Below are positions 2 to 26,632 of a stretch of DNA of 30,028 nt, piece after piece (positions within the stretch are counted from its first letter, which is position 1; every line of letters starts with the position of its first letter). The position numbers were made by a program, and so were the translations under genes. The notes below the pieces were generated by a model, which was not told where the DNA came from, did no database searches, and saw nothing but the letters and a program-made list of their open reading frames with translations. Source of the stretch: a virus; the IMG/VR virus record IMGVR_UViG_3300037136_000061, positions 1 through 30,028 of that record; one strand, written 5' to 3'.

Positions 2-2581
2 GCCATTAATCAAGTTACGGCTATGTACGGTTCGGGTCCGATCGTTGATGCTTTCAGGGCTATTGCTGCCCCTAGCAATGATCCGGATATCGTCGGGACT
101 TCCAATACGATTTACATCATGAAGACCAATAAGGGAACTCAGGCTACTTCGACTATCCCTAATTTTTCCGGCACGTACGGAAGCTTCACCGCCTTGAATT
201 ATGGTACCGGCGGCAACTTGTTCAATTTTACCGTCACTTCCACTAGTTCTGAGGTCCCTCCTCAGGTTACTGGGACTACGATTACTTCATTCGGCACAGC
301 TTTGGACGGAGATACTTTCTCCATTCGCCTAAACGGTGGCGCCGTAGATGTTGTTACTCTTAGCAGCGGCTCTTCTTCTCCAGTTAGCCCGACTGAATCT
401 GCTGCGGGTCAGTCTGCTGCAAGTTCTGCATATACTAGCTTGAATGCTATGACCTCTACTCCTATCGCAGCTGTTCTCGATGGTCAAACTCTGACTCCTG
501 GAGTTTACAGTACCGGTGCTGCTAACTTAGCCACTTCTGGTGCGGGCGCTATCACTTTCAATGGTGCTGGCGTATACGTCATCAAGACTGCAAGTACTCT
601 GGTAACCGGTGCTGGTGGGATTCCTACCATGACGCTTACCGGCGGCGCTACTGCTGCAAACATTTACTGGGTGGTTGGCACCTCTGCTACCATCAATTCT
701 GGCTTTACCGGAACCTTCCAAGGTAACGTTATTGCCGAAGACAGCATCACTGATACTCTTGGTGGAACTGTTAACGGTAGCATGATCGCTCTTACGGGTG
801 CTGTAACTCTCAGTGCCGCAACGGCAGTTAATGCTCAGAACTCACCACTGCTACACTACGCTGGTAGCTTCGGTCTGTTGGGCGCTTCCGCTGTAACGAA
901 TACTGGCTCTTCGACTGTGACCGGAAACGTTGGATCTAGTCCAACCAATTCGATCACTGGCTTCCCACCTGGAACCATTGTTGGGGCTGCTCATTCTAAT
1001 ATCGCTGAATTGATCTCGGAACTGAACATTCTTCTTCCTGCTGGGATAGTGGCTTCGGCTGGCGCTTCCAATAGCGTCGTTCTGACGATGGCAGTTGAAA
1101 CCGGCCCATATGCTAGCGGATCTGGTCAATCGTTTGAATTGATCGATTCTACTCCTGGAGATCTAGCTGCTTTAGGCCTCACTGCTGGACTGTATACTTC
1201 TAGCGAAGAGCCTAGTGTTGAAGTTCAGGTCATTAACACTACGACTGGCCTTAACGAGCTTTTCAATGTTAGTCCTAATGTTGCGATGACCGTAGGCTAT
1301 CAGGGTACTAGCGGAACCATGACGATTAACGCTACTACGCTGACCACGACTGTTACTGGCGGAACTGGTTCGAATCTTTCGATCACTCTTTCTCAGTATA
1401 CCACGATTAGCCAACTGGCCGCATTCATTAATTCACAGCCTGGGTACTCTGCAAGTGCGGCTCCTTCTGCCAACTCATTACCTCCTTCTGCTCTTGATCA
1501 GGTAACGGCAATTGGGATCGCCTCTACGGAAGCTGACACTCAGCCTGGACGAATCAAGGATTCTGCCTATACTTTCCAACAGCAAATGAATACCTCTACC
1601 GCTCTCGGCTTTACGCCTACGGCTACTGCAGGTCTTCCTCAGCCTGGATCTGTAACTTATCTCTCTGGCGGGGCACTTGGGCCAACATTGGCTATTGACA
1701 TTGTCAATTGTATCGCTCAGATGGCCGGTATCCAGGTGAACATTATCGTTCCTCTGTTTTCGCAGGATGCTTCTAAGGATATCGCCGCAGGGAATACGGA
1801 TCCTGGCTCAACGTATACGATCAACGCAATCAATGAATTGCTGAAATCGCATTGTATCCAGTACTCGACTCCTGCTCTGAAACGTAATCGTATGGCAATT
1901 TGTTCGTACAATGATACGTACGCAAATTGTAAGGCTCAGGCTCAAAGCTTGGCAACTTATCGCTGCACTTTGACTTTCCAGCAATGCACTCAGGTCAATT
2001 CGCAAGGCGTCAACACCTTGTTCCTCCCTTGGTACGGCGCATGTATCGCTGCTGGTATGCAAGAAGGTGGTTTCTACAAGTCGATTTGTAATCACTTGGC
2101 GAACATCGTTTCGTTTACGAATCCGACGGGATATGATGCTGGAGATCCTGCAGATGTGGCCGATGCCCTGATTGCTGGTTTGCTTCCTTTGACTCAGAAT
2201 ACTTCCGGTATCATCTGGGTTTCGGATCAGACCACTTACGGATTGGACACGAATTTCGTTTACAATTCGATCCAAGCTGTTTACCTTTCTGACATCCTCG
2301 CTTTGGACCTTGCACAAAGTTTCCAGACGGCGATCGTTGGAAAATCTGTGGCAGATGTGAGTGCGGCTTCGGCTCTCAGCTTCTTGCAGCAACGTTTCGA
2401 TTACTACAAGAAACTGAAAATCACAACCACTTCCAATGACGCACCTCTTGGGTACAAGAATGCTTCGATTCAAATCGCAGCGCCTTCTATGTACGTCAGT
2501 GTGGAAGCTAAACTAACGACGAGCATCTACTTCGTAGCGATTCAGCTTGCTCTCTCATCTGTTCAGCAGTCGGCTGGTTAA
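2..2581 (+). CDS. Tail sheath protein with inserted DUF3494 (ice-binding-like) domain, 5' partial
   Basis: The reading frame is open to the left edge, so the N-terminus is missing; residues below count from the first ATG at 23. The C-terminal half (about 350-852) matches contractile-tail sheath proteins I know from myoviruses, for example SDQTTYG followed by NFVYNSIQAVY near 734-754 and the segment FKRNR-like 'ALKRNRMAI' near 618-626. The sheath polymerises around the tube and contracts at injection. Residues about 128-335 form an inserted domain with DUF3494 signatures: TLTPGVYS (157-163), IYWVVGTSATI (214-224), NVIAEDSIT (235-243), TVNGSMIALTGAVTL (249-263), then LGASAVTNTG (286-295) and ITGFPPGTI (311-319). 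In normal DUF3494 proteins the last two motifs come first, so the domain looks circularly permuted. It interrupts a sheath beta-strand/helix pair (VDVVTLSSG ... HSNIAELISELN). A role in surface decoration or binding is inference. Confidence 0.85.
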   Translation, partial: AINQVTAMYGSGPIVDAFRAIAAPSNDPDIVGTSNTIYIMKTNKGTQATSTIPNFSGTYGSFTALNYGTGGNLFNFTVTSTSSEVPPQVTGTTITSFGTALDGDTFSIRLNGGAVDVVTLSSGSSSPVSPTESAAGQSAASSAYTSLNAMTSTPIAAVLDGQTLTPGVYSTGAANLATSGAGAITFNGAGVYVIKTASTLVTGAGGIPTMTLTGGATAANIYWVVGTSATINSGFTGTFQGNVIAEDSITDTLGGTVNGSMIALTGAVTLSAATAVNAQNSPLLHYAGSFGLLGASAVTNTGSSTVTGNVGSSPTNSITGFPPGTIVGAAHSNIAELISELNILLPAGIVASAGASNSVVLTMAVETGPYASGSGQSFELIDSTPGDLAALGLTAGLYTSSEEPSVEVQVINTTTGLNELFNVSPNVAMTVGYQGTSGTMTINATTLTTTVTGGTGSNLSITLSQYTTISQLAAFINSQPGYSASAAPSANSLPPSALDQVTAIGIASTEADTQPGRIKDSAYTFQQQMNTSTALGFTPTATAGLPQPGSVTYLSGGALGPTLAIDIVNCIAQMAGIQVNIIVPLFSQDASKDIAAGNTDPGSTYTINAINELLKSHCIQYSTPALKRNRMAICSYNDTYANCKAQAQSLATYRCTLTFQQCTQVNSQGVNTLFLPWYGACIAAGMQEGGFYKSICNHLANIVSFTNPTGYDAGDPADVADALIAGLLPLTQNTSGIIWVSDQTTYGLDTNFVYNSIQAVYLSDILALDLAQSFQTAIVGKSVADVSAASALSFLQQRFDYYKKLKITTTSNDAPLGYKNASIQIAAPSMYVSVEAKLTTSIYFVAIQLALSSVQQSAG

Positions 2582-2603: not shown

Positions 2604-3086
2604 ATGGCAATTTCACCTCAAGCATCTAAAGTACTTACTGGCGGAAGATCAGTCGTAAGTATCGACCAGGGTTCAGGCCCAGTGGTTATTGGGATCTTCG
2701 ATTCCTGTACCGTCAACGAAAGTATTTCCAGTGAAGACATTCATCTTCTTGGGCGTTATTCGCCTGATGAAATCACTTTGACTGCATATAATGCGGTTAC
2801 TGTTCAATGTGCAGGATTCAGAGTCTATGGACACGGCGTGAAGATTCTGGGAGCTTTTCCGACTCTTAACGCTCTTTTGGGACTTGGGCCAGTTACGATT
2901 ACCGTGAGTGATAGGGAGAATCCTTCGATTCCGATGGCGACCATAATTGGTTGCTTGCCTGACACCAACAGCAATTCTTTTCAGAGCAGGGCTACTTCCA
3001 AAATCAATATAACATACAAGGGGATAGCCTTAAGCGATGAAAGTGCGCCGAATGACGCCGAGTCTGGTGCGGTTTCTTTACCTTAA
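2604..3086 (+). CDS. Probable tail tube protein
   Basis: This 160-residue protein begins at an ATG with an AAGGAG ribosome site, 22 bases after the sheath stop. It sits exactly where contractile-tail phages carry the tube gene. Its size and its start (MAISPQASKVLTGGR), the segment LGRYSPDEITL (about 50-60), the 'GFRVYGHG' strand and a C-terminal KINITYKGIALSDES strand resemble the small beta-barrel tube proteins that follow this sheath type. The tube forms the inner conduit that the sheath surrounds. A rho-independent terminator follows, so sheath and tube probably end a transcription unit. The family call rests on remembered similarity plus position; a different small tail protein is possible. 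Confidence 0.62.
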   Translation: MAISPQASKVLTGGRSVVSIDQGSGPVVIGIFDSCTVNESISSEDIHLLGRYSPDEITLTAYNAVTVQCAGFRVYGHGVKILGAFPTLNALLGLGPVTITVSDRENPSIPMATIIGCLPDTNSNSFQSRATSKINITYKGIALSDESAPNDAESGAVSLP

Positions 3087-3183: not shown

Positions 3184-3861
3184 ATGAAGAAATATTGCCC
3201 CGATTGTAAGATGGAAAAAGAAATAGGGTTTTTTGGAAAAGAAACGGCCAATAAGGACGGTCTTAGGTCTATATGCAAATCCTGCAATTCGGCTAGGGCT
3301 CTAAAATGGCACAGTGCGAATGTAGAGCGTGTTAATGCTAGAGAAAGGGCCTTCTATGCAAAAGACCCCTCTAAGTCATCAGAAAAGAATAAAAAATGGC
3401 GCAAGGAAAACCCAGAGAAGGTGACCGCATCTAATAGAAAACGATGGAAAAATAGAGACATAGAAAAAACCAAAGAAAAAGACAATGCTTGGAGAAAAAG
3501 CAATCCCGATAAGGCCAGCGTTAACTCAAAAAGGGACTACGAAAAAAATAAGGAAAAACGCAAACCAGTCCGTAGAAAATGGGAACAGGCGAATAAGGGT
3601 AAACGTCGGGCCATTGTTGCCAAGCGACGAGCGGCTAAGCTACAGGCTACCCCTAAATGGCTAACAAAAGAGCAATTATTGGACATTCAGACAATTTATA
3701 TAGAGGCCGATAGGCTATCGCGAGAAACTGGCGTTCCTAGAGAAGTTGACCACGTCGTGCCGTTACAGGGTAAAAATGTATGCGGTCTTCATGTCTCATG
3801 GAATTTAGAGATCCTGACTAAGGAAGAAAACGCCCGTAAGCACAATAAGTTCTCATTTTAA
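3184..3861 (+). CDS. HNH homing-type endonuclease 1 with N-terminal zinc finger
   Basis: The 225-residue protein starts with a four-cysteine zinc-binding module (C5, C8, C31, C34). A long basic linker of Lys/Arg-rich repeats follows, then a C-terminal HNH nuclease core: EVDHVVPL (D189-H190), LHVSWNL (H203, N207) and a final Asn/His pair (N216, H220). HNH enzymes cut DNA with one metal ion; free-standing phage versions usually act as selfish homing endonucleases that spread their own gene. It is isolated between the tube terminator and a small structural gene and has its own promoter, which fits an independent insert. Two relatives lie at 13656-14504 and 25988-26632. Confidence 0.85.
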   Translation: MKKYCPDCKMEKEIGFFGKETANKDGLRSICKSCNSARALKWHSANVERVNARERAFYAKDPSKSSEKNKKWRKENPEKVTASNRKRWKNRDIEKTKEKDNAWRKSNPDKASVNSKRDYEKNKEKRKPVRRKWEQANKGKRRAIVAKRRAAKLQATPKWLTKEQLLDIQTIYIEADRLSRETGVPREVDHVVPLQGKNVCGLHVSWNLEILTKEENARKHNKFSF

Positions 3862-3876
3862 TCCAATCTTATCCTT

Positions 3877-4266
3877 ATGCCTGTTACCCTCCCAAACGCT
3901 ACCACAGCCAATACCGAGTCCTTTGCCAGTATCGCTGCTGCTACAGCTACAGCTGAAGCCGCCTTTATCGCTTCAACAACTGTTTTAATTAACCAGGCTA
4001 CGGCCTTAGGTATATTCCAGATTCAACCGTATCTTCCTGCTTTGGTTACAAGCGCCTATGTAACGACCTATTTCACCGGCTTAGGCTATTCTGTTCTCTA
4101 CCCCATTCTCCCTCCTAGTCCATTCAATTGGTGCGGAATTCCTGCAGGATTTCCAGAAGTAGTACCCAAAAATTGGGTTAATTGGGGGTGTGGATGCGGT
4201 TATACGGGCCTCCCACGCATACAGCTCAGTTGGCCTCCTTTTCCAGTCATCCCGCCTGGCCCTTAA
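3877..4266 (+). CDS. Hypothetical protein, Ala/Thr-rich N-terminus and Pro/aromatic C-terminus
   Basis: I do not recognise this 129-residue protein. The first 45 residues are Ala/Thr-rich and probably helical. The C-terminus is rich in Pro, Trp and Gly with a Cys cluster (WGCGCGYTG, about 102-110) and ends PVIPPGP. No ribosome binding site precedes the ATG; instead the motif CAATCTTATC ends 4 bases upstream, as for several neighbours. It lies between HNH endonuclease 1 and virion-type genes, so a structural or assembly role is possible but unproven. The absence of a strand-matched overlapping gene and the good spacing support it being real. Confidence 0.55.
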   Translation: MPVTLPNATTANTESFASIAAATATAEAAFIASTTVLINQATALGIFQIQPYLPALVTSAYVTTYFTGLGYSVLYPILPPSPFNWCGIPAGFPEVVPKNWVNWGCGCGYTGLPRIQLSWPPFPVIPPGP

Positions 4267-4326
4267 AAACGCCCTAATCTTAAGTATGTCCATATGGTTG
4301 GATCTTAGGGTTAAGGAAATGGTGTC

Positions 4327-5199
4327 ATGGCTACAGAACCGAATTTTAATGCGGTCTCTCCAATTGCGCTTACAGCCGATGGCACTGCTAATGGCGTCCT
4401 CCAAGTAGCTGATACTATTGGTTTTTATTTTGGAATGCAGGCCACCCTTCTAAATAACGCCTCCCTCCAAAAAACAGTCTACATCAAAAGGGTCGTAAAT
4501 AGTACGACCTTGTGGGTCGGTGCTAGCAAAGGCGGAATCGACCATAATGTGGACGTGAGCGCCTTTACGGTCGCCACCTCTTCTACTATTGGAGCGGACG
4601 AACAGAAAAAAGCCTCCGTTCCAATGGAAGCTAGGCTACTTTCAACGTATGAAACGGATCCGGTTGATGCCTGGCGTACCGTACCCGTAGATAGCTACGG
4701 AAACCACTATACCAATGACAATCCCTTTCCTGTTGCCCTTGAAGGCTCTATTTCAATTTCTACGGTTGAGGTTAAGGGGCCAAACGGTAACTTCATAGAG
4801 CCCAATGCCGATGGTTCCATTAATGTCATAGTGGAAAGCGTTCCTAGTCCTAATAGCACTGTCATAAGCACTTACAATGCCGTCTCATCAGTAGCATCTG
4901 GGGCTACCACTCAAATCATATCCTATACCGTCCCACCGGCCATGCAGGCGGTTTTACAGCGTTGCCCCGTCTCTGGCACCAACGTAGCGACTTATACCCT
5001 TTTAATCAATGCTACCACACAAGATACCTTGAGGACCATGTTTGGGGCTGATTTGACTCAAGAGTTCAATTTTACTACTGGAAATGATTCGGGATTGATT
5101 CTAAATGCTGGAGATGTAGTGGCTATTCAAGTCTTACATATGCGACCTTATACTGGCGATTTTAACGCCAGAATCCAAGTCCTTCAGATCCCGGCTTAA
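4327..5199 (+). CDS. Virion-associated protein, fibre/baseplate-like C-terminal beta domain
   Basis: This 290-residue protein has an AAGGAAA ribosome site 9 bases before the ATG. The N-terminal half has repeated short beta-strands (GFYFGMQATLLNN, KTVYIKRVV). A central strip, 'DSYGNHYTNDNPFPV', resembles the LPVR and PVPV segments of the fibre-like proteins downstream. The C-terminal part (about 185-290) shares its plan with residues 445-548 of the 5436-7082 product: a Tyr/Val-rich lead, ASGATTQIISYTVPP, and a closing 'GDVVAIQVLHM' strand. It is therefore probably a component or relative of the same tail-fibre assembly. No enzymatic motif is visible. Confidence 0.6.
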   Translation: MATEPNFNAVSPIALTADGTANGVLQVADTIGFYFGMQATLLNNASLQKTVYIKRVVNSTTLWVGASKGGIDHNVDVSAFTVATSSTIGADEQKKASVPMEARLLSTYETDPVDAWRTVPVDSYGNHYTNDNPFPVALEGSISISTVEVKGPNGNFIEPNADGSINVIVESVPSPNSTVISTYNAVSSVASGATTQIISYTVPPAMQAVLQRCPVSGTNVATYTLLINATTQDTLRTMFGADLTQEFNFTTGNDSGLILNAGDVVAIQVLHMRPYTGDFNARIQVLQIPA

Positions 5200-5225
5200 C
5201 ACAATCTTATAGGAGAGGAAATCTT

Positions 5226-5411
5226 ATGACAGCTTACGAATTGAAAAAGCTCCAAGTTGAGTATAAACGAGTTAATGCTGCTAGAGAAGAGCAGGAACTT
5301 AAAGTGTTAGAGTTCCAAGAGCAGATCGCCCGCATCGAGGCCAGTATCGCTATTTCTATAGCTAAAGAAGAAGAACTTTCTGCGAAGCTCGCCGCCGCTA
5401 AAAATAATTAA
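5226..5411 (+). CDS. Small coiled-coil protein
   Basis: This 61-residue protein is almost entirely heptad-like (LKKLQVEYKRV, then alternating Glu/Lys/Leu/Ile) and ends in a short Ala/Lys tail. It begins after an AGGAGAGG ribosome site spaced 7 bases from the ATG. It lies between two virion-type genes and probably forms a coiled-coil oligomer, perhaps a fibre assembly or trimerisation helper. That role is inference from shape and context. The AATCTTAT octamer occurs twice in front of it (5203 and 5220). Confidence 0.65.
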   Translation: MTAYELKKLQVEYKRVNAAREEQELKVLEFQEQIARIEASIAISIAKEEELSAKLAAAKNN

Positions 5412-5435
5412 TTAAGATCCTAGGGGGATTAGAAT

Positions 5436-7082
5436 ATGTCAGATTTTAATAGCAGTTTACCGGTAAGGACCCAAACTAACGGCGACGTAGTTGCCTTTTT
5501 AGCAGACGGTACTACACCTACCCAGTTATTGGCCATTACAGCCGCAGGTCACATTCTTACGAATTTGTCCGATGGGGCTGGAACGGCCATTACATCAGAA
5601 ACAAATGGAGCCCATCAAGCTCTTGACGTAATGACACAAAGTTCTGGCTCTGTAACGGGCGGTACAGCAGCTGCTTTCTCAGATCTTGCTGGTGCTATCT
5701 ACAATAGCACTCCTCCTACATTGACGACCGGTCAGCAAGTATCATTGCAAGTAGACTCTGCTGGTAGGCTCTTGGTCGATGCTATGATCACCTTTCCCTA
5801 CGATACCAATTGGGGAACTGTTGATGCAACTACTCTAAGAACTGCTGCTGAAATCGGTAATGCTACCGGAGCGGCTGATTTCAACGCTGGTGCTACTGGT
5901 GCTCAAACTCTTAGGGTTGCCGCTAATCAAGGTGCTCCCAATACCATCGCAAATGCATGGCCTACTTTAATCACAAACGGCACCAATACCGTTAGTGTAA
6001 ATGCTTCTGGTCAACTCAGCACGACTAACACGTCCCTTGGTTCTCCTACTGGTGGTGCTGCCGGTACTCAATCCAGTTTAGCCGGTGGTATCTATAATAG
6101 TACTCCTCCTACCCTCACCACTGGTGAGCAGGCCTCTTTACAACTTGATTCTGCTGGTAGATTGCTTGTTGATGCTAGCGTTGTTTTCCCATATGATGAA
6201 AACTGGGGCGTCGTCGGTGCAACTACTCTTAGAACGGCAGCACAAATCGGCAATGCAACTGGTGCAGCTGATTTCAACTGGGGTGCAGTTGGTGCCCAAA
6301 CTTTAAGAGTTGCTGGTCAAATCGGCAATGCAACTGGTGCAGCTGATTTCAACGCTGGTGCTACTGGTGCTCAAACTCTTAGGGTGGCTGCTAATCAAGG
6401 CGCCCCTAACACTGTAGCTAACGCATGGCCTACTTTAATCACAAACGGTACCAATACCGCCTCTGTTTCTGCTGGTGGTGAACTGAGCGTAACCGTTTCA
6501 ACTCCTTTGCCCGCTGGTACTAATACCATTGGTAATGTTGGTGTAACTAATTTACCGACCACTGTTGATACTAACTGGGGAACGGTTGGAGCTAGCACTA
6601 TTAGAGCTGCTGCTGAAATCGGCAATGCTACTGGCGCTGCGGATTTCAATAATGGCGCTACTGGTGCTCAAACTCTTAGGGTTGCTGCTAACTTGGCAGT
6701 TGCTGGTGCAGATGTAACCAGTGCTAATCCTGTGCCTGTTTCTATCGTATCTACGACCGCCGGTACAGCTGTTCAAAATTATCAGACTTACGTAAACTTG
6801 GCAGCTGGTGCTTCAACTACTTTCACGTATACTGTGGCAGCTGGACACACTTTCAATCTAGAGAGAGTCTGGTCATCGGGATCTGGTAAGATCAAATCTC
6901 TTGTTCAAAATAACGGAAGTACGATTTTTGTTGGATTCAACAGCACGGCCAATCCAAACATTGATATGACCGTCGTTGTTCCTCCACTGATTGCTGCCGG
7001 TAACACTGTTACTGTAACAATCACCAATAACGATTTGCTCGCCTTTGATGTGTATGTAACTATTGAAGGAAATCAGAACTAA
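5436..7082 (+). CDS. Repeat-containing tail fibre-like protein A
   Basis: This 548-residue protein is low-complexity and Ala/Thr/Gly/Asn-rich, built from recurring modules. The unit NWGTV-x-A-T-x-LRTAA-x-IGNATGAADF ... AQTLRV occurs at about 125-161, 257-292, 380-416, plus a shortened copy at 295-317. The unit IYNSTPPTLTTG occurs at 88-100 and 219-230. The C-terminal 100 residues form a beta-rich cap resembling the C-terminus of the 4327-5199 product. Such arrays are typical of phage fibres or virion appendages; receptor or surface binding is the likely role. DNA repeats inside the gene are almost identical, suggesting recent copy-number change. An AGGGGGAT ribosome site precedes the ATG. Confidence 0.7.
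   Translation: MSDFNSSLPVRTQTNGDVVAFLADGTTPTQLLAITAAGHILTNLSDGAGTAITSETNGAHQALDVMTQSSGSVTGGTAAAFSDLAGAIYNSTPPTLTTGQQVSLQVDSAGRLLVDAMITFPYDTNWGTVDATTLRTAAEIGNATGAADFNAGATGAQTLRVAANQGAPNTIANAWPTLITNGTNTVSVNASGQLSTTNTSLGSPTGGAAGTQSSLAGGIYNSTPPTLTTGEQASLQLDSAGRLLVDASVVFPYDENWGVVGATTLRTAAQIGNATGAADFNWGAVGAQTLRVAGQIGNATGAADFNAGATGAQTLRVAANQGAPNTVANAWPTLITNGTNTASVSAGGELSVTVSTPLPAGTNTIGNVGVTNLPTTVDTNWGTVGASTIRAAAEIGNATGAADFNNGATGAQTLRVAANLAVAGADVTSANPVPVSIVSTTAGTAVQNYQTYVNLAAGASTTFTYTVAAGHTFNLERVWSSGSGKIKSLVQNNGSTIFVGFNSTANPNIDMTVVVPPLIAAGNTVTVTITNNDLLAFDVYVTIEGNQN
6243..6353 (+). repeat. Near-identical module duplication inside fibre gene A
   Basis: A 36-base stretch starting CAAATCGGCAATGCAACT is identical at 6243-6278 and 6318-6353, a period of 75 bases. 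The second copy continues into sequence matching 5880-5920. This produces the shortened third copy of the IGNATGAADF module and looks like recent slippage or unequal recombination. Confidence 0.8.
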
Positions 7083-7111
7083 TAATTAGGGTTCCTGATA
7101 AAAGTTAAAAT

Positions 7112-7142
7112 TTGTTAACAAATCATACCCTTGTGATATATA
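7112..7142 (+). promoter_or_regulatory. Possible promoter of fibre gene B
   Basis: TTGTTA (7112-7117) and an extended minus-10 (TGATATATA, 7134-7142) lie just before the ATG at 7149. Spacing from the minus-35 is 19 bases, longer than ideal. The expected transcript start is near 7149, which would explain why this gene has no evident ribosome binding site. Confidence 0.4.
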
Positions 7143-7148
7143 AATGGT

Positions 7149-9989
7149 ATGGCAGATTTAAATGGCGTTAACGATACACTTCCTGTAAGGCTAGGCGGCG
7201 TAAGCACTACAAGTGGCTTACCCGATAACTATGCTGACGTCACTGTCAATGGGCAGCTCCTCGTATTGCCTGCTGATAACGGCCCAGTAGTTCCTGGTAC
7301 TGCAGCGAGCTATTCTGCTTTGATAGGCGGTCAATACAATAGTACTTTGCCTACTTTAACTACTGGACAGCAGAGTGCTATCCAAGTTGATTCTCGTGGG
7401 CGCATACTGATTGTAAGTACCAACTTTCCAACTACGGTTGATACCAATTATGGAACAGTTGGAGCGAATACATTACGCACAGCTTCTCAAATAGGTAACG
7501 CTACTGGCGGAGCTGATTTTGCAGCAGGTAACTCTAGTGCGCAGACGCTAAGGGTAGTTGTTGCCACAAACCAAGCGACGTTGCCTATTTCAGCTGCTTC
7601 TTTGCCTTTACCTACTGGCGCTTCTACTGAAGCAACTCTGGCAAAATTACCACTAGCGCAGGCATCTACTACGAGTGGGCAATATGGTATTCTAGTACAA
7701 GGTGCAGTTACAACTACAGCTCCAACATATTTCAACGGAGCGACAAGTCCTCTATCTTTAACTACGACAGGGGCACTGCGTGTTGATAACTCTGCGGTAA
7801 CTCAGCCGGTTATTGGTACTCTTACAAACAATAGCTCTTCTCCTTTAGCAGACAATGTGGGCGTGTTGGGTGCATGGGCACAGAATACTGTGAATCCTTC
7901 TCGCTATACTTCTAATACTCAAGTATTGCCAATTGTTGACATAGCGGGAAACACAAATGTTGACTTGCAGTACTTTAATAGTGCTGCAATAAGTGCATCC
8001 AATCCGGTAATAACAACGCTATCTGATGGTGTTCACACACTCAACCAAGCATTTTCTTCTTATGGTACGGCTCCAATTGGTACCTATGTTCAGGGCGTTA
8101 ACGCATACATTACTAATGCTCCAGAGATAAGTGCGGTATATAATTCCACCGCGCCGACATTAAGTAATGGACAATTAACTCCATTACAAACAGATATTAA
8201 CGGCAATCTAAAAATATCTGGAACTTTTAGCGCAATAAATCTGTCTGTAAGTCAAATCGCAGTAACCTCTCCTTCCTATGCTACCAATGTTGGCGGGGCT
8301 GTAACAACTGCCGCTCCCAGTTATGTCTCTGGTCAACTGGATGCCCTATCTCTTACTACTGCAGGTGCTCTAAGAGTAGATGGATCTGGAGTAACTCAAC
8401 CAGTAAGTGGAACGTTTTGGCAGGCAACGCAACCAGTTTCTGGCACTGTGACGGTCAATCAAGGAACCGCTAACGCAACTCCCTGGAATGAAAATGTGGC
8501 CCAGTTTGGTGGGAGCGCAGTGGTTACTGGAACTGGCGCGTCTGGTGCCGGTATTCCTCGTGTTACAGTATCGAATGATTCAAATATTTTAGCTACTCAA
8601 TCTGGGACATGGACGGTAGAGCCTGGCAATACAGCTAACACGACAGCTTGGTTTGTAAAAGATAATTCTCTTGGTACTGTAGCCGCTGGTACAGCAGGCA
8701 CTCAGTCTTCGTTGGTGGGTGGAGTATTCAATACTGCACTGCCTACATTGACTACAGGTCAACAAGTTGCTTTACAGTTAGATTCTAGCGGTAGATTAAT
8801 TATAGCCCCAACAACTCAGGGTCTTCTTGCCGAAGATCATAACTATGGAACGGTTGGCGCCAATACGTTGCGCACAGCTTCTCAAATTGGTAATGCAACT
8901 GGTGCAGCTGATTTTGCTGCAGGCAATTCAAGTGCTCAAACACTGCGCGTAGTAATAGCAACAAATCAAGCGGTTTTGACCATACAGGGTGACTCTGCTA
9001 GCGGAGCAGCGAAAGCAGGTAACCCAGTTCAAATTGGCGGCGTATTCAATACCACACAGCCTACGGTCACAACTGGAGAAACCGTTGAAGCTCAATCTAC
9101 TGCAAGGGGCGCTTTGATAGTCGCTACAGGAGTAGATGCTTTCAATATTGACAACATTACGGGCACTGTCTCATTGCCTACTGGCGCATCCACTTCAGCA
9201 AATCAGGCAACTGAGATAACTTCCTTACAGCTGATTGACAACATAGTTGGATCAGGTCCAGGAGCAGGAACTGCGGGTACTGGGTCAGCTCTTATGGGTG
9301 GCGTATTTAACACGGCGCTACCAACACTCACCAATGGTCAGCAGGCGGCAATACAGCTAGATTCTAGCGGTAGATTAATTATAGCCCCATTAACTAACAC
9401 GAGCGTTGTTAAGTCTCAACTGCAAGATAATGCGGGGAATGGGCTCACTTCTACTACATCTGGCGCTTATCAGTCATTAGATGTGATGATCACCCCTCCA
9501 GCAACAACTACATACATGGCTGCGTCTGGAAATTTTACCCCTCCAGCAACTCCAACAGATATGTGGGTAATACAGGGCAGTGGAACTAAAACAATTAAGA
9601 TTCTAAGTATTAAGATGTCTACCACCCAGACAACTGCTGGTACGAACACCTTTTTTCTAAAAAGATATTCCACTGCTGACACAGCGGGAACGGCTACTAC
9701 CATCGCCTCTTTCCCACTAGATACTAACAATGCTGCCGCTACGGCGACAATAAAAAACTATACAGCCAATCCTACCTTGGGCACTCTTGTAGGTTCTTTA
9801 GATAAAGCTTATGTAAGCTCGACAGCGGTCGGAGGAGCAATACAACCTTATGAATGGGATTTCACAAACAGCTTAGGGCAACCTCTTACGTTGAGGGGTG
9901 CCGCAGATCAAATTGCTATTAATTTCAATGGTGCCGCTTTGCCTGCAGGGTTACAAGTAGCAGTAACAGTTATGTACTTAGAGGTGTAA
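7149..9989 (+). CDS. Repeat-containing tail fibre-like protein B
   Basis: This 946-residue protein extends the module family of the preceding fibre gene. YGTVGANTLRTASQIGNATG units lie at about 101-136 and 566-601. Units of the form GG-x-[YF]N[ST]-x-x-PTLT-x-GQQ ... DSSGRL lie at about 59-87, 523-553 and 716-746, with diverged copies near 327-356 and 628-657. A separate 'GAVTT-APxY ... SLTTxGALRVD' unit occurs near 186-213 and 383-411. The last 160 residues (from about 787) form a different, non-repetitive beta-rich domain and probably the distal or oligomerising tip. It begins LPVR like protein A, suggesting a shared attachment end. A role as long fibre or virion appendage is inferred. No Shine-Dalgarno sequence precedes the ATG. 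Confidence 0.7.
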   Translation: MADLNGVNDTLPVRLGGVSTTSGLPDNYADVTVNGQLLVLPADNGPVVPGTAASYSALIGGQYNSTLPTLTTGQQSAIQVDSRGRILIVSTNFPTTVDTNYGTVGANTLRTASQIGNATGGADFAAGNSSAQTLRVVVATNQATLPISAASLPLPTGASTEATLAKLPLAQASTTSGQYGILVQGAVTTTAPTYFNGATSPLSLTTTGALRVDNSAVTQPVIGTLTNNSSSPLADNVGVLGAWAQNTVNPSRYTSNTQVLPIVDIAGNTNVDLQYFNSAAISASNPVITTLSDGVHTLNQAFSSYGTAPIGTYVQGVNAYITNAPEISAVYNSTAPTLSNGQLTPLQTDINGNLKISGTFSAINLSVSQIAVTSPSYATNVGGAVTTAAPSYVSGQLDALSLTTAGALRVDGSGVTQPVSGTFWQATQPVSGTVTVNQGTANATPWNENVAQFGGSAVVTGTGASGAGIPRVTVSNDSNILATQSGTWTVEPGNTANTTAWFVKDNSLGTVAAGTAGTQSSLVGGVFNTALPTLTTGQQVALQLDSSGRLIIAPTTQGLLAEDHNYGTVGANTLRTASQIGNATGAADFAAGNSSAQTLRVVIATNQAVLTIQGDSASGAAKAGNPVQIGGVFNTTQPTVTTGETVEAQSTARGALIVATGVDAFNIDNITGTVSLPTGASTSANQATEITSLQLIDNIVGSGPGAGTAGTGSALMGGVFNTALPTLTNGQQAAIQLDSSGRLIIAPLTNTSVVKSQLQDNAGNGLTSTTSGAYQSLDVMITPPATTTYMAASGNFTPPATPTDMWVIQGSGTKTIKILSIKMSTTQTTAGTNTFFLKRYSTADTAGTATTIASFPLDTNNAAATATIKNYTANPTLGTLVGSLDKAYVSSTAVGGAIQPYEWDFTNSLGQPLTLRGAADQIAINFNGAALPAGLQVAVTVMYLEV
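8779..9389 (+). repeat. Dispersed identical repeat in fibre gene B
   Basis: A 32-base stretch beginning TAGATTCTAGCGGTAG is identical at 8779-8810 and 9358-9389 and encodes LDSSGRLIIAP. It marks module boundaries and could support recombination within the gene. Confidence 0.75.
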
Positions 9990-13655: not shown

Positions 13656-14504
13656 ATGAAATCATGTAGCAATCCAGAATGTAAGAAGATTAATCCGCAA
13701 GAACTGACTGCGTTCTATAAAGACAAAAGTCACAGCAAAGGATTCTCATCTCAATGTAAGGCTTGTATTTCTACATATCGGGCCGATCACTATAAGGAAT
13801 ATAGAGAAGAAAAACTAGCACAAAGCACCGCTTACTACGAGAAAAATAGAGAAAAAATCCTTATTCGTCAAACTGATTACTACGAGAAAAATAGAGAAAA
13901 AATCCTTATTCGTCAAACTGATTACTACGAGAAAAATAAAGAAGAAATAGATAAGCGAACCGCTATTTATAGAGCAGAACACAAAGAAGAAATAGCCATT
14001 TATAATGCCTCTTATCGTGCTACACATAAAGAAAAGATAGCTGAATATCAAGCGGCCCATAAAGAAGAAAGAGCCGTCTATCGAGCAGAATATAGAGAAA
14101 AACATAAAGAAGAAATGGACGCTTGGCAAACTGCTCATAGAGCTGAAAATTCTGCCCGTACACGTAAATGGCAAAAGGACAATCCTGGTAAGGTTAATGC
14201 CAATAGTAACAAAAGGCATGCCGCTAAACTTCAAAGGACTCCTCCTTGGGTAACGCAGGAACAACACGAGGAAAATCAACAATTTTATGTAGACGCTAAA
14301 GCTTTCGAATTTCAATTTGGAAGCCCTCTTGAAGTCGATCACATTATACCGATGCGCAGTAAAAACGTATCTGGCTTGCACGTACCCTGGAATCTTCAGA
14401 TATTGCCGGAAGCAGTAAATAACCACAAGAAGAACAAATTTAATCAAGAAGAGTATAACAAAAAATACCTCCTTGAATTAATGGAAATCGCAAATGGAAA
14501 ATGA
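13656..14504 (+). CDS. HNH homing-type endonuclease 2 with long charged repeat linker
   Basis: The 282-residue protein has an N-terminal zinc-binding module (C4, C9, C34, C37). A long Lys/Glu/Tyr-rich helical linker (about 40-175) of repeated units such as YYEKNREKILIRQTD and 'YRAEHKEEIA' follows, then an HNH core: EVDHIIPM (D228-H229), LHVPWNLQIL (H242, N246) and a closing Asn/Lys stretch. It is related to the enzymes at 3184 and 25988. Two linker units are exact DNA duplicates. The last 11 bases overlap the start of the next gene in another frame, so it has become embedded at the head of the following operon. Homing endonuclease function is the family expectation. Confidence 0.85.
   Translation: MKSCSNPECKKINPQELTAFYKDKSHSKGFSSQCKACISTYRADHYKEYREEKLAQSTAYYEKNREKILIRQTDYYEKNREKILIRQTDYYEKNKEEIDKRTAIYRAEHKEEIAIYNASYRATHKEKIAEYQAAHKEERAVYRAEYREKHKEEMDAWQTAHRAENSARTRKWQKDNPGKVNANSNKRHAAKLQRTPPWVTQEQHEENQQFYVDAKAFEFQFGSPLEVDHIIPMRSKNVSGLHVPWNLQILPEAVNNHKKNKFNQEEYNKKYLLELMEIANGK
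13833..13937 (+). repeat. 45-bp perfect tandem repeat in HNH linker
   Basis: Copies at 13833-13877 and 13878-13922 are identical (15 codons, YYEKNREKILIRQTD); a third begins at 13923 and diverges after about five codons. This is an in-frame expansion of the helical linker. Confidence 0.9.
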
Positions 14505-16167: not shown

Positions 16168-16758
16168 TCACTTTTCACTATTAAGGGTCCTATAAACGGT
16201 GTTCCTGCTTAGATTGGTGTGTCGTGCGATCTCAGAAACACTTTTGCCCTCTTCTTTAAGCTTTTTGATTACCGAATGACCCGGCTTGAACGGCCTGCCA
16301 AGCTTCACACCTTTGGACTTAGCATTGGCCAATCCACTCAAAACGCGCTCCTTGATGGTAGCCGCTTCAAACTCTGCAAAGGATCCTAAGATACTGAAAA
16401 GCAAACGTCCAGTCGCTGTACTCATATCAATGGAATCTTTGACCGAGATGAACTCGACTCCATGTTCTTGGAATAGAGAAACCATCTCTAGTAAATCTCG
16501 CAAACTTCTGGCCAAACGATCTAACCGATATACGACCACTCTTGAAATCTTTTTAGACCGGCAATCGGCTAACATTTTATTGAGGGACGGTCGGTCTCTT
16601 TTGGTCCCACTTATGCCCTTGTCTTGGTAGATCTCAAAATCTGTAATTTCTTTGGACTCCAAATACTTTTTAATATCAACAAGTTGAGAACCGGTATCTT
16701 GTTCCCGACCGTTTTTTTCGCCTTCTGTTGAAACTCTCGTATATACAGCTGTTTTCAC
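16168..16758 (-). CDS. Serine recombinase (resolvase/invertase family)
   Basis: The 196-residue protein has the full small serine recombinase layout. The N-terminal catalytic segment is AVYTRVS with nucleophile S10. The conserved arginines lie in VVYRLDRLARS (about 75-85), and the SILGSFAEFEAATIKERV segment leads into the long dimer helix. A C-terminal helix-turn-helix follows (GKSVSEIARHTNLSRNTVYRTL, about 171-192, after GRPFKP). These enzymes invert or resolve DNA between short sites. It starts at a GTG that overlaps the previous stop, with GGAGG just upstream. No paired recombination sites were found in the window. Possible roles are concatemer or plasmid-dimer resolution, gene inversion, or an acquired mobile gene. 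Confidence 0.9.
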   Translation of the reverse strand: MKTAVYTRVSTEGEKNGREQDTGSQLVDIKKYLESKEITDFEIYQDKGISGTKRDRPSLNKMLADCRSKKISRVVVYRLDRLARSLRDLLEMVSLFQEHGVEFISVKDSIDMSTATGRLLFSILGSFAEFEAATIKERVLSGLANAKSKGVKLGRPFKPGHSVIKKLKEEGKSVSEIARHTNLSRNTVYRTLNSEK

Positions 16759-17315
16759 ATTGCCTCCAAAAATTCGCTTTTATGTTTCATTTCATGAAAC
16801 TCTTTCACAACGTCCACAATGATTTTAAATTGCGTATCCCTGCGATAGGCGGCGGCGTAGGTGGCGGCGTTGGCGGCGGCGTTGGCGGCGGCGTAGGCGG
16901 CGGCGTAGGCGTAGGTGGCGGCGTCGGCGGCGTAGGCGGCGTAGGTGGCGGCGTAGGCGGCGTAGGTGGCGGCGTTGGCGGCCTGACATTTTTTAAGGTT
17001 TTCAGGAGTTGGATTTTTGATATATTCTCTGGCAGCCTTAATGGCGTCCCTCGGGCGTTGGTCTTTCGGGAATTCTTTTTCAAAAATAGGAAGTACGTCT
17101 TCAGCAAAGCGAATAGCGCATTCCTTAACGACGTTTTCGGGTAGAATCTTAAAAGCACTCCTAATGCTATCTTCAGGATTTAATGGGGATAGCTGAAAAT
17201 ATGCATCCCAAGCGTCGGCATCCCCAATGTGTCGGGACATATAATCGGAGATCACTTGAGGATCATTTGAACTGAGTAGCCGCAAGGTAACAATATGTGT
17301 TTTAATAGATAGCAT
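16755..17315 (-). CDS. Imm-5-like protein with Ala/Tyr repeat tract
   Basis: The start at 17315 is supported by GAGGA a few bases upstream and by the stop of a small upstream gene; a longer TTG frame is unlikely. The 186-residue product has an N-terminal helical part. A conserved-looking segment PIFEKEFPKDQRPRDAIKAA (76-95) follows, then an Ala/Tyr/Asn tract (about 112-157, units AATYAAYAA and AAANAAANA), then a charged helix. The 'lplfE..pP.D.RPR.AI.aa' segment followed by Ala-rich helices is typical of proteins annotated as putative immunity proteins of the Imm-5-like group. In a phage the partner is unknown. The tract is encoded almost only with GCC alanine codons. Confidence 0.6.
   Translation of the reverse strand: MLSIKTHIVTLRLLSSNDPQVISDYMSRHIGDADAWDAYFQLSPLNPEDSIRSAFKILPENVVKECAIRFAEDVLPIFEKEFPKDQRPRDAIKAAREYIKNPTPENLKKCQAANAATYAAYAATYAAYAADAATYAYAAAYAAANAAANAATYAAAYRRDTQFKIIVDVVKEFHEMKHKSEFLEAM
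16846..16983 (-). repeat. GC-rich short tandem repeat encoding Ala/Tyr/Asn tract
   Basis: Units of GGCGGCGTA, GGCGGCGTT and GTAGGTGGC (plus-strand reading) repeat through this stretch in an otherwise AT-rich area. The array is a clear candidate for length change between related phages. Confidence 0.85.
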
Positions 17316-17322
17316 ATTTTCC

Positions 17323-17427
17323 TCAATGACTCGTTCTCGATCCACAATCCGATACAATGGCCAATAAATCGCTTACCCAAAACCAAGTTTGGTCGCCTTC
17401 AAACATCATATCGTAAACTTCTTCCAT
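17323..17427 (-). CDS. Tiny ORF, 34 residues
   Basis: The frame MEEVYDMMFEGDQTWFWV... starts one base after the preceding small gene's TAG and stops 7 bases before the Imm-5-like gene, where its TGA contributes to that gene's GAGGA ribosome site. No strong ribosome site precedes its own ATG, so re-initiation would be needed. It is included because it fills the gap in perfect register with its neighbours. Confidence 0.4.
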   Translation of the reverse strand: MEEVYDMMFEGDQTWFWVSDLLAIVSDCGSRTSH

Positions 17428-23686: not shown

Positions 23687-24376
23687 TTAATGATACAGAT
23701 TCTCTGAAGGAAGCAATGCGCTATCCATGTTCACGATAAGAGACTGATTGCCACCACCTTGAAAGTAATCAATCTCAAAAGTGTGAACCGTGTCCTGCAA
23801 GTGCCTTTGACCGGTTACATCGGTAGCCCCATGAAGTCCATCATTTGCGACTACCAAAGTTCCATCCACGTACAGATTTGACCCATCGTCACTAGTCACG
23901 TCAAACTCATGAAAACTGTCCGTTGCAATGACTAGATAGCCGGTACACTTCAAGATAAACCATGTTTGGTATACCGTAGCTAGAGCGGGGGGCAAAACAT
24001 TCAACCCGGCGGTTACCGACGCATTGGGTTGATTAAATGGCACCGAAGATGTAAATACGCCCACATTGGTTAGAACTGGCGCGACACCACCATTCGCTGT
24101 AGCCGTGATGCCCGTAGTCGTTTGAGGCACGGTATACAAGTTGCAGGTAAGCCCTGGGTCAATCGTTTCTTGCCCATTAGACGTTCGCCATGCATTATAG
24201 TCATTCACGATGCCTTGCACTGTATCAGGCGTTGTGGACGTAGCTGAGGCACCGGGGGCGCTAGCGGGTCCTTGCGCTCCCTGCCCGCACCCAGCGATAC
24301 CCCATGAAACGGCAATGATTGCCATGATAAAGAAAAGTGCTGCTTGTAGTTTATCTTCGATTCTGATTTTGTTCAT
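23687..24376 (-). CDS. Lipoprotein with PA14-like carbohydrate-binding domain
   Basis: The start at 24376 has AAGGAT 5 bases upstream; a longer frame from 24442 lacks a site. The 229-residue product has a signal peptide ending in a perfect lipobox (IAGC, C30), a Gly/Ala/Pro linker (QGAQGPASAPGAS) and a middle domain (NDYNAWRTSNGQETI, TCNLYTVPQTTT). A C-terminal PA14-like region follows: FHEFDVTSDDGSNLYVDG (155-172, with the Asp pair typical of calcium-linked PA14 folds), NDGLHG, and HTFEIDYFQGGG. PA14 domains often bind glycans on surfaces. It has its own terminator, an isolated 'moron' layout. Outer-membrane display and host-surface change are inferred. Confidence 0.75.
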   Translation of the reverse strand: MNKIRIEDKLQAALFFIMAIIAVSWGIAGCGQGAQGPASAPGASATSTTPDTVQGIVNDYNAWRTSNGQETIDPGLTCNLYTVPQTTTGITATANGGVAPVLTNVGVFTSSVPFNQPNASVTAGLNVLPPALATVYQTWFILKCTGYLVIATDSFHEFDVTSDDGSNLYVDGTLVVANDGLHGATDVTGQRHLQDTVHTFEIDYFQGGGNQSLIVNMDSALLPSENLYH

Positions 24377-24487
24377 AATATCCTTAGTCTCCTTGGTACT
24401 ATGTATTGCAGTTTCGAGGCCAACTTCGTATCTTGTTTTCATTCACGATTTTTTATTAGCACTGTTTAACTTATGATCAGGTGACAA

Positions 24488-25987: not shown

Positions 25988-26632
25988 ATGAAGGAATGCA
26001 GAAATCTAACCTGTAAACAAGTTAATCCGCAAGAACTGATGGAATTCGCTATGCGCAGAGCATCCAAGGATGGCCTTCAATCTAAATGTAAATCCTGCAC
26101 AGCTATTGAGATGAAAGAATATCGTCAGACCCCAAAAGGGAAAGCTGTTGATCGTCGAGCTGCTAAGAAATATAGCCAAACCCCAAAGGGGAAAATTACT
26201 GTAATTAAAGCGCGTGCCAAATATAAGAGCGGGCCTAAGTCGAAAATCGCCCATAAGCGATACGAACAAAGCCCAAAAGGTAAAGCAACTAAAAAGCAGT
26301 ATCTGAAATCCCCAGAAGGGGTTGCTATGCAGGCTCGCGCTCAAAAAAAATATGAGCAAACTCCACAAGGAAGGGCTAAAAGCATTGCTCGTGTCGCCAA
26401 ACGGAAAGCCATTAAATTGCAAAGAACCCCGAAAGGCTTAACAAAAGAACATCACAAAGAAATTGAAGCACTTTATATTGAATCCACCGAACGAACCAAT
26501 AAAACGGGGATTCCTTACGATGTAGACCACGTAGTGCCACTACAAGGTAAAAACGTATCGGGCATGCACGCGCCTTGGAATCTTCAGGTGATTACTGCTT
26601 CCGAAAATCGCAAAAAGGGCAATAAGTTTTAA
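25988..26632 (+). CDS. HNH homing-type endonuclease 3 with PKGK repeat linker
   Basis: The 214-residue protein shares the plan of the other two HNH genes: a zinc module (C4, C9, C34, C37), a basic repeat linker with QTPKGK-type units at about 47, 64, 94 and 124, and an HNH core, YDVDHVVPL (D180-H181), MHAPWNL (H194, N198), SENRKKGNK. It is the only rightward gene in the 15.8-30 kb leftward block, separating a leftward gene's promoter region from a second leftward run. This placement and an independent promoter indicate a late insertion. The core is closest to the first HNH gene (same LQGKNV strip). Confidence 0.85.
   Translation: MKECRNLTCKQVNPQELMEFAMRRASKDGLQSKCKSCTAIEMKEYRQTPKGKAVDRRAAKKYSQTPKGKITVIKARAKYKSGPKSKIAHKRYEQSPKGKATKKQYLKSPEGVAMQARAQKKYEQTPQGRAKSIARVAKRKAIKLQRTPKGLTKEHHKEIEALYIESTERTNKTGIPYDVDHVVPLQGKNVSGMHAPWNLQVITASENRKKGNKF

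Follow-up and report, generated by a model that had tools for sequence, protein, structure and literature searches.

A circularly permuted DUF3494 domain in a phage tail sheath: a mobile cassette and candidate adhesin

The window analyzed here, an IMG/VR virus record 30,028 bases long, opens inside a gene for which the 5' end is missing: its first ORF (2-2581) is in a frame still open at the 5' edge. Its identification as a contractile tail sheath is supported by the match of its core to the PHROG 279 tail sheath family (E 7.9e-16, with 12 of 13 relatives matching likewise), by a profile match to the phi812 sheath (5LI2, E 2.7e-10) and by sheath folds; the nearest annotated protein, at 39.7% identity, is the “tail sheath protein” of Myxococcus phage Mx1. 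A full-length model of a near-identical sheath (L003) is weak overall (pLDDT 55.5). Its best sheath match, with a large rmsd, is phi812 (Z 9.9), followed by phiCD508, XM1, Mu and P1; because these matches come from a low-confidence model, they are supportive only beside the sequence match. In the same model, the strands flanking the insert described below and the region downstream correspond to a segment of the E217 phage sheath (8fvg, chain 87-212). The gene adjoining the sheath, probably the tail tube gene to judge from its position, is 32% identical (E 7e-24) to the gene beside the Mx1 sheath, there annotated as hypothetical, and has a weak PHROG structural match. The features of the locus are collected in Table 1.

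Table 1. Features of the sheath locus, with positions in the window.
Feature	Position	Strand	Evidence
Gene of the contractile tail sheath, lacking its 5' end (859 aa read)	2..2581	+	PHROG 279, 5LI2, sheath folds, Mx1
Sheath beta-hairpin directly before the insert, LDGDTFSIRLNGGAVDVVTLSSG	302..370	+	Aligned in empty-site sheaths; two strands predicted
Inserted circularly permuted DUF3494 domain, ~207 aa	~371..991	+	Empty-site homologues; fold pLDDT 90.8; swapped two-part 6EIO match
Alpha helix, first here but mid-protein in normal DUF3494	389..445	+	Model residues 14-32
C-part: end of the helix plus coils b2-b6, ending TGAVTLSAATAVNA	416..835	+	HMM E 5e-65
Five-residue joint QNSPL, old C end to old N end	836..850	+	Five-residue gap in permuted copies
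N-part, normally N-terminal: coil b1 with its cap, LGASAVTNTG to ITGFPPGT	851..976	+	HMM E 5e-21; 6EIO residues 22-81
Native sheath helix after the insert, HSNIAELISELN	992..1027	+	In empty-site sheaths; helix in models
Sheath core, C-terminal half	1118..2578	+	PHROG 279, E 7.9e-16
Probable tail tube gene adjoining the sheath	2604..3086	+	Identity inferred from position

Upstream of its core, this sheath contains a second domain. Pfam family PF11999 (Ice_binding, DUF3494) matches the first ORF with 102.6 bits (E 3.1e-29) in two stretches, and a scan of the DNA with the same profile places profile positions 25-206 (at 269-823) ahead of positions 2-111 (at 878-1219), with 91.4 and 31.1 bits, both above the family cut-off of 28.7. 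Separate HMMs for the two halves of the domain find first the C-part (residues 139-278, E 5e-65) and then, after a gap of five residues, the N-part (residues 284-325, E 5e-21), and neither half has a second copy elsewhere in the sheath protein. Searched against the PDB with phmmer, the insert matches the ice-binding protein EfcIBP (6EIO) in two swapped pieces, residues 160-219 of the query on 22-81 of the chain and residues 36-160 on 105-227, which together span nearly the whole insert; AnpIBP (7BWX) is matched in the same manner, and in all three solved ice-binding proteins matched the halves appear in swapped order. The chain thus runs helix, b2-b6, five-residue joint, b1, cap, and makes up one complete DUF3494 domain. 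The normal chain order being absent, the insert is a circular permutant derived from the DUF3494 family and not a canonical member of it. The earlier note had read this rotation from a series of family motifs, all of which are found in the first ORF as quoted and in the order given. It had also placed the insert between two sheath pieces at 404-1027; the insertion is borne out, and the boundaries shift to about 371-991 on comparison with empty-site sheaths, since the empty loop of one of these (L171) reads VTLSNTPANHSNIATLVTEL, which makes HSNIAELISELN native sheath.

The predicted structure agrees with the chain order. AlphaFold2 was run on residues 117-357 with an alignment of 55 rows in which permuted domains stood beside normal-order copies cut into separate fragments, a choice that kept the fragments from imposing a chain order on the model. 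The result (mean pLDDT 90.8, pTM 0.84) shows one helix, then an unbroken beta-solenoid across the joint, then the sheath helix; the insert is accordingly predicted to be a right-handed beta-solenoid with a helix alongside. In VIA-align, about 25 DUF3494 entries match it with Z 15.4-17.9 and rmsd 1.7-3.1. Almost all of these alignments stop at model residue 163-167, where the moved segment starts (the exceptions, 3UYU and 3UYV, reach residues 226-227), whereas ordinary, unrelated beta-solenoids align further, to residues 204-214. For a model of a permutant, a sequential alignment that stops at the moved segment is the expected behavior. The predicted fold could have spoken against the permutation proposed in the earlier note; as modeled, it is the solenoid of the DUF3494 family.

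In normal DUF3494 structures the chain order is b1-cap-helix-b2...b6 and the spatial order b1-b6-b5-b4-b3-b2, the N-terminal coil b1 being stacked on the C-terminal coil b6 (PMC7966756, PMC7277481). Since b1 already lies on b6, joining the two yields a plain continuous solenoid; for the same reason, the ends of a normal domain are adjacent too. The suggestion that a permuted domain sits in a loop therefore holds, but not the reason offered for it, that permutation was needed to bring the ends together. Permutation would instead relocate the attachment, which normally lies between b1 and b6, to the capped tip, and the domain would be mounted end-on. In the present sheath, the old C end (b6) is joined to the old N end (b1) by the five residues, and the new ends, one preceding the helix and the other following the b1 cap, plug the domain between the sheath beta-hairpin and the next helix, with the solenoid nested in a loop of the sheath's own insertion domain.

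A scan of IMG/VR with the sheath core gave 393 relatives, of which 80 were kept and 69 distinct sheaths compared. DUF3494 is absent from 47 of the 69, present at the site found in the window (site A) in 18 and, in the remaining four, present in a different loop that immediately precedes the homologous beta-hairpin (site B). Permuted order and five-residue joint occur in all 22 domain-bearing sheaths, and a normal-order DUF3494 domain in none of the 69. Each sheath thus holds one permuted domain or none, and the halves of two separate normal-order domains, the arrangement that would have told against the permutation, were not seen in these relatives. Explaining the pattern of presence and absence on the sheath tree takes seven or more gains or losses, and well-supported branches impose five of these. 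A smaller tree, built with more care, places one empty clade within the carriers, an apparent loss.

Sheath and insert also differ in their histories. Among 15 A-site sheaths, the flanks of the insert follow the core of the sheath (Mantel r 0.68 and 0.48), while the insert itself does so weakly (r 0.20 for the C-part, 0.32 for the N-part). Individual pairs depart from each other in both directions: L116 and L163 have cores 60% identical and C-parts 87% identical, and L116 and L117 have cores 87% identical but first halves of the insert only 34% identical. These comparisons show an insert that has been exchanged between phages independently of the surrounding sheath. A narrower idea, that the b2-b6 block alone is swapped, was dropped: the N-part had seemed to track the sheath (r 0.78), but this was driven by the distant B-site group, and within the A-site group the correlation falls to 0.32.

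The permuted form is not confined to sheaths. It also occurs, beside normal-order copies, in two other phage protein families: a protein of 530-542 aa (L024, L032), whose relatives L040, L066 and L097 have that loop empty and a normal-order domain further along, and, as a third placement, a long protein (L084). Its presence in two sheath loops and two other families, its repeated gain or loss and its exchange show by comparison that the permuted domain is a mobile, dispensable cassette.

These phages have another mobile module as well, some 66 residues long (YTFTVTSANATAGATYTNNGQTFTV...GTGDATITFSAF), at varied positions in sheaths and other large proteins (L166, 203-268; L119, 434-499; L109, 121-186; also L028, L048, L094, L096, L098 and L099).

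As to function, one copy on each sheath subunit would give a dense array of solenoids along the tail, which would probably serve as a multivalent adhesin or decoration toward an extended hydrated surface such as host or biofilm polysaccharide, or ice. The position and dispensability of the insert argue for surface decoration on every subunit; with a whole-sheath model too poor to locate it on the tail, its outward exposure would follow from the sheaths of other phages and from that same dispensability. The whole explanation, a permuted solenoid in a sheath loop that moves as a cassette and acts as multivalent adhesin or decoration, is considered probable. Taken by itself, adhesion or decoration of some kind is a fairly likely role for the insert, and one that overlaps with the two alternatives taken next; binding of polysaccharide or ice is plausible. 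A wider version, in which the permuted DUF3494 domains of these myophages (contigs up to about 170 kb) form a transferable virion cassette that plugs end-on into loops of sheath and tail proteins, is lost and gained again, is re-sorted by recombination with normal-order copies in other virion proteins and turns the tail into a multivalent ice- or polysaccharide-binding array, is put forward tentatively, as something rather short of an even prospect.

One alternative is that the insert binds nothing outside the virion, and is a structural stabilizer or spacer acting in sheath-sheath or sheath-tube contacts. Beta-solenoids are rigid and stable, and what hints at binding is homology and the Thr/Ser face alone. 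Yet more than two thirds of the distinct related sheaths (the 47 of 69) do without the insert, some of them nested among carriers; it is tolerated in two different loops; and its sequence is swapped independently of the sheath, unlike that of a domain packed on conserved sheath surfaces. A purely structural role is thus a doubtful alternative, though one to be kept in mind.

Another possibility is that the insert is a true ice-binding module, holding virions on ice or protecting them during freezing. By sequence alignment alone, the residues equivalent to the ice-binding face of AnpIBP are SAVTNT, GAVTLS, DSITDT and TSATIN; four coils in a row share a Thr at the matching position. In addition, one study has reported Arctic viral contigs that carry PF11999 genes (PMC11515562). 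Against this, coil b5 puts a charged residue, Asp, on the putative ice-binding face, and the family name is no proof of ice binding. The Thr-rich face is common to the normal-order phage copies, and may be an inherited scaffold rather than a selected binding site. Ice binding in the strict sense therefore seems unlikely; adhesion or decoration in the broader sense remains the preferred reading.

How the permutation arose can be considered from the normal-order copies in the same phages. One contig of 162 kb (G002) encodes a permuted sheath domain and three normal-order domains in two other proteins, and identity between normal-order and permuted copies reaches about 75%. The protein L045 has a tandem normal-order array, N-C-N-C, with an 11-residue linker; such an array is a plausible precursor, since trimming it to the middle C-N would leave a permutant. 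Trees reject a single clade for all permutants (AU p 0.043; p 0.0046 on the C-part). The joint, however, has a constant five residues of similar sequence, which suggests one origin with recombination, and one origin followed by recombination is as good a reading as several origins.

The same tandem arrays could in principle leave a remnant of two separate normal-order domains, each partly lost, that merely resembles a permutant. This is very improbable here: there is one copy of each half, the two together form one complete, confidently folded domain, the joint stays at five residues in the 22 carrier sheaths and in L024, L032 and L084, and the arrangement is kept across many contigs at a site that is otherwise empty. 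Nor, although the record is of metagenomic origin, can the odd order credibly be an assembly or sequencing artifact, with the frame open throughout and the same order found at the same site in 18 distinct sheaths drawn from different metagenomes, and in four more at the second site.

The one permuted copy with a different joint is in L098 (residues ~1040-1290): it is cut after the helix rather than before it, with an unrelated joint of 10 residues, in a protein that also holds a normal-order DUF3494 copy, and is likely a separate event. Among the normal-order copies, the top PF11999 score seen, 204.8 bits, belongs to L044 (G006:C1, a 96 kb contig with an empty-site sheath), where an ORF of 619 aa has the domain at its C-terminal end. 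In L026, one frame of 1389 aa (4035-8201) includes two normal-order domains; in the near-identical L027 the same protein is split at the second domain into frames 4035-6794 and 6798-8201.

Beyond these phages, 84,980 cellular genomes were scanned twice with narrow degenerate-peptide patterns, and no close relative turned up; permutants outside those patterns may exist in cells. Plasmid matches span only about half of the query, and annotated phage genomes contain no close copy of the insert.

Both components have known relatives. With the bacterial and fungal ice-binding (antifreeze) proteins of DUF3494/PF11999 (such as EfcIBP 6EIO, AnpIBP 7BWX and ColIBP 3WP9) the insert shares clear homology (102.6 bits), coils and helix, with Z up to 17.9 over the helix and b2-b6, and sequence alignment would give it largely the same flat Thr/Ser-rich B-face; it differs in having b1 and cap last rather than first, and in being nested in a virion protein where those proteins are secreted. 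With other contractile sheaths (PHROG 279; phi812 5LI2, XM1, Mu, P1, E217; Mx1) the protein shares the core and overall fold. The XM1 sheath is one of those known to have an extra insertion domain, InD, which resembles FliD D3 (PMC10457771); what differs here is that the insertion domain in turn holds a second domain, the DUF3494 solenoid, in one of its loops. PF11999 “ice-binding-like” genes in Arctic vOTUs, viral like the present one, have been treated as auxiliary, with possible host cryoprotection, and the available portion of that report describes neither permutation nor sheath location (PMC11515562). Among the open-licence PMC papers searched, none was found that joins DUF3494 with circular permutation or with phage, nor one that brings together ice binding, bacteriophage and tail sheath. 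The DUF3494 fold and sheath insertion domains are both already on record; what appears to be new is the natural permutation, along with its use as a mobile virion cassette.

It is uncommon to find a solved fold in naturally permuted form. In this case permuted and normal forms coexist in related phages; alongside them there are unfilled sites, several host proteins to compare and a plausible route through tandem repeats, so that the rise and spread of a permutation should be directly traceable. The sheaths also indicate that contractile tails can bear large swappable surface domains, and they connect phage tails with a well-known antifreeze fold, which may help to keep virions attached to surfaces.

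Several other features of the window deserve mention. Three similar ORFs on the plus strand (3184-3861, 13656-14504 and 25988-26632) have CxxC pairs and an EVDH-VPL--KNV-G-H--WNL motif; with no Pfam match, they look, as read from their sequence, like HNH-type homing endonucleases. On the minus strand are a serine resolvase-type recombinase (16168-16758; PF00239, E 2.5e-44) and a lipoprotein-like ORF with a PA14 domain (23687-24442; E 1.7e-11), possibly a carbohydrate-binding protein. The minus-strand ORF at 16755-17357 includes an Ala/Tyr-rich low-complexity stretch, AYAATYAAYAADAATYA..., which on the opposite strand reads as GVGGGVGG repeats. Downstream of the sheath, 5436-7082 and 7149-9989 (plus strand) encode large repetitive proteins with NATGAADFNAGATGAQTLRVAANQGAPNT repeats; these lack Pfam and PHROG matches and are probably fiber-like.
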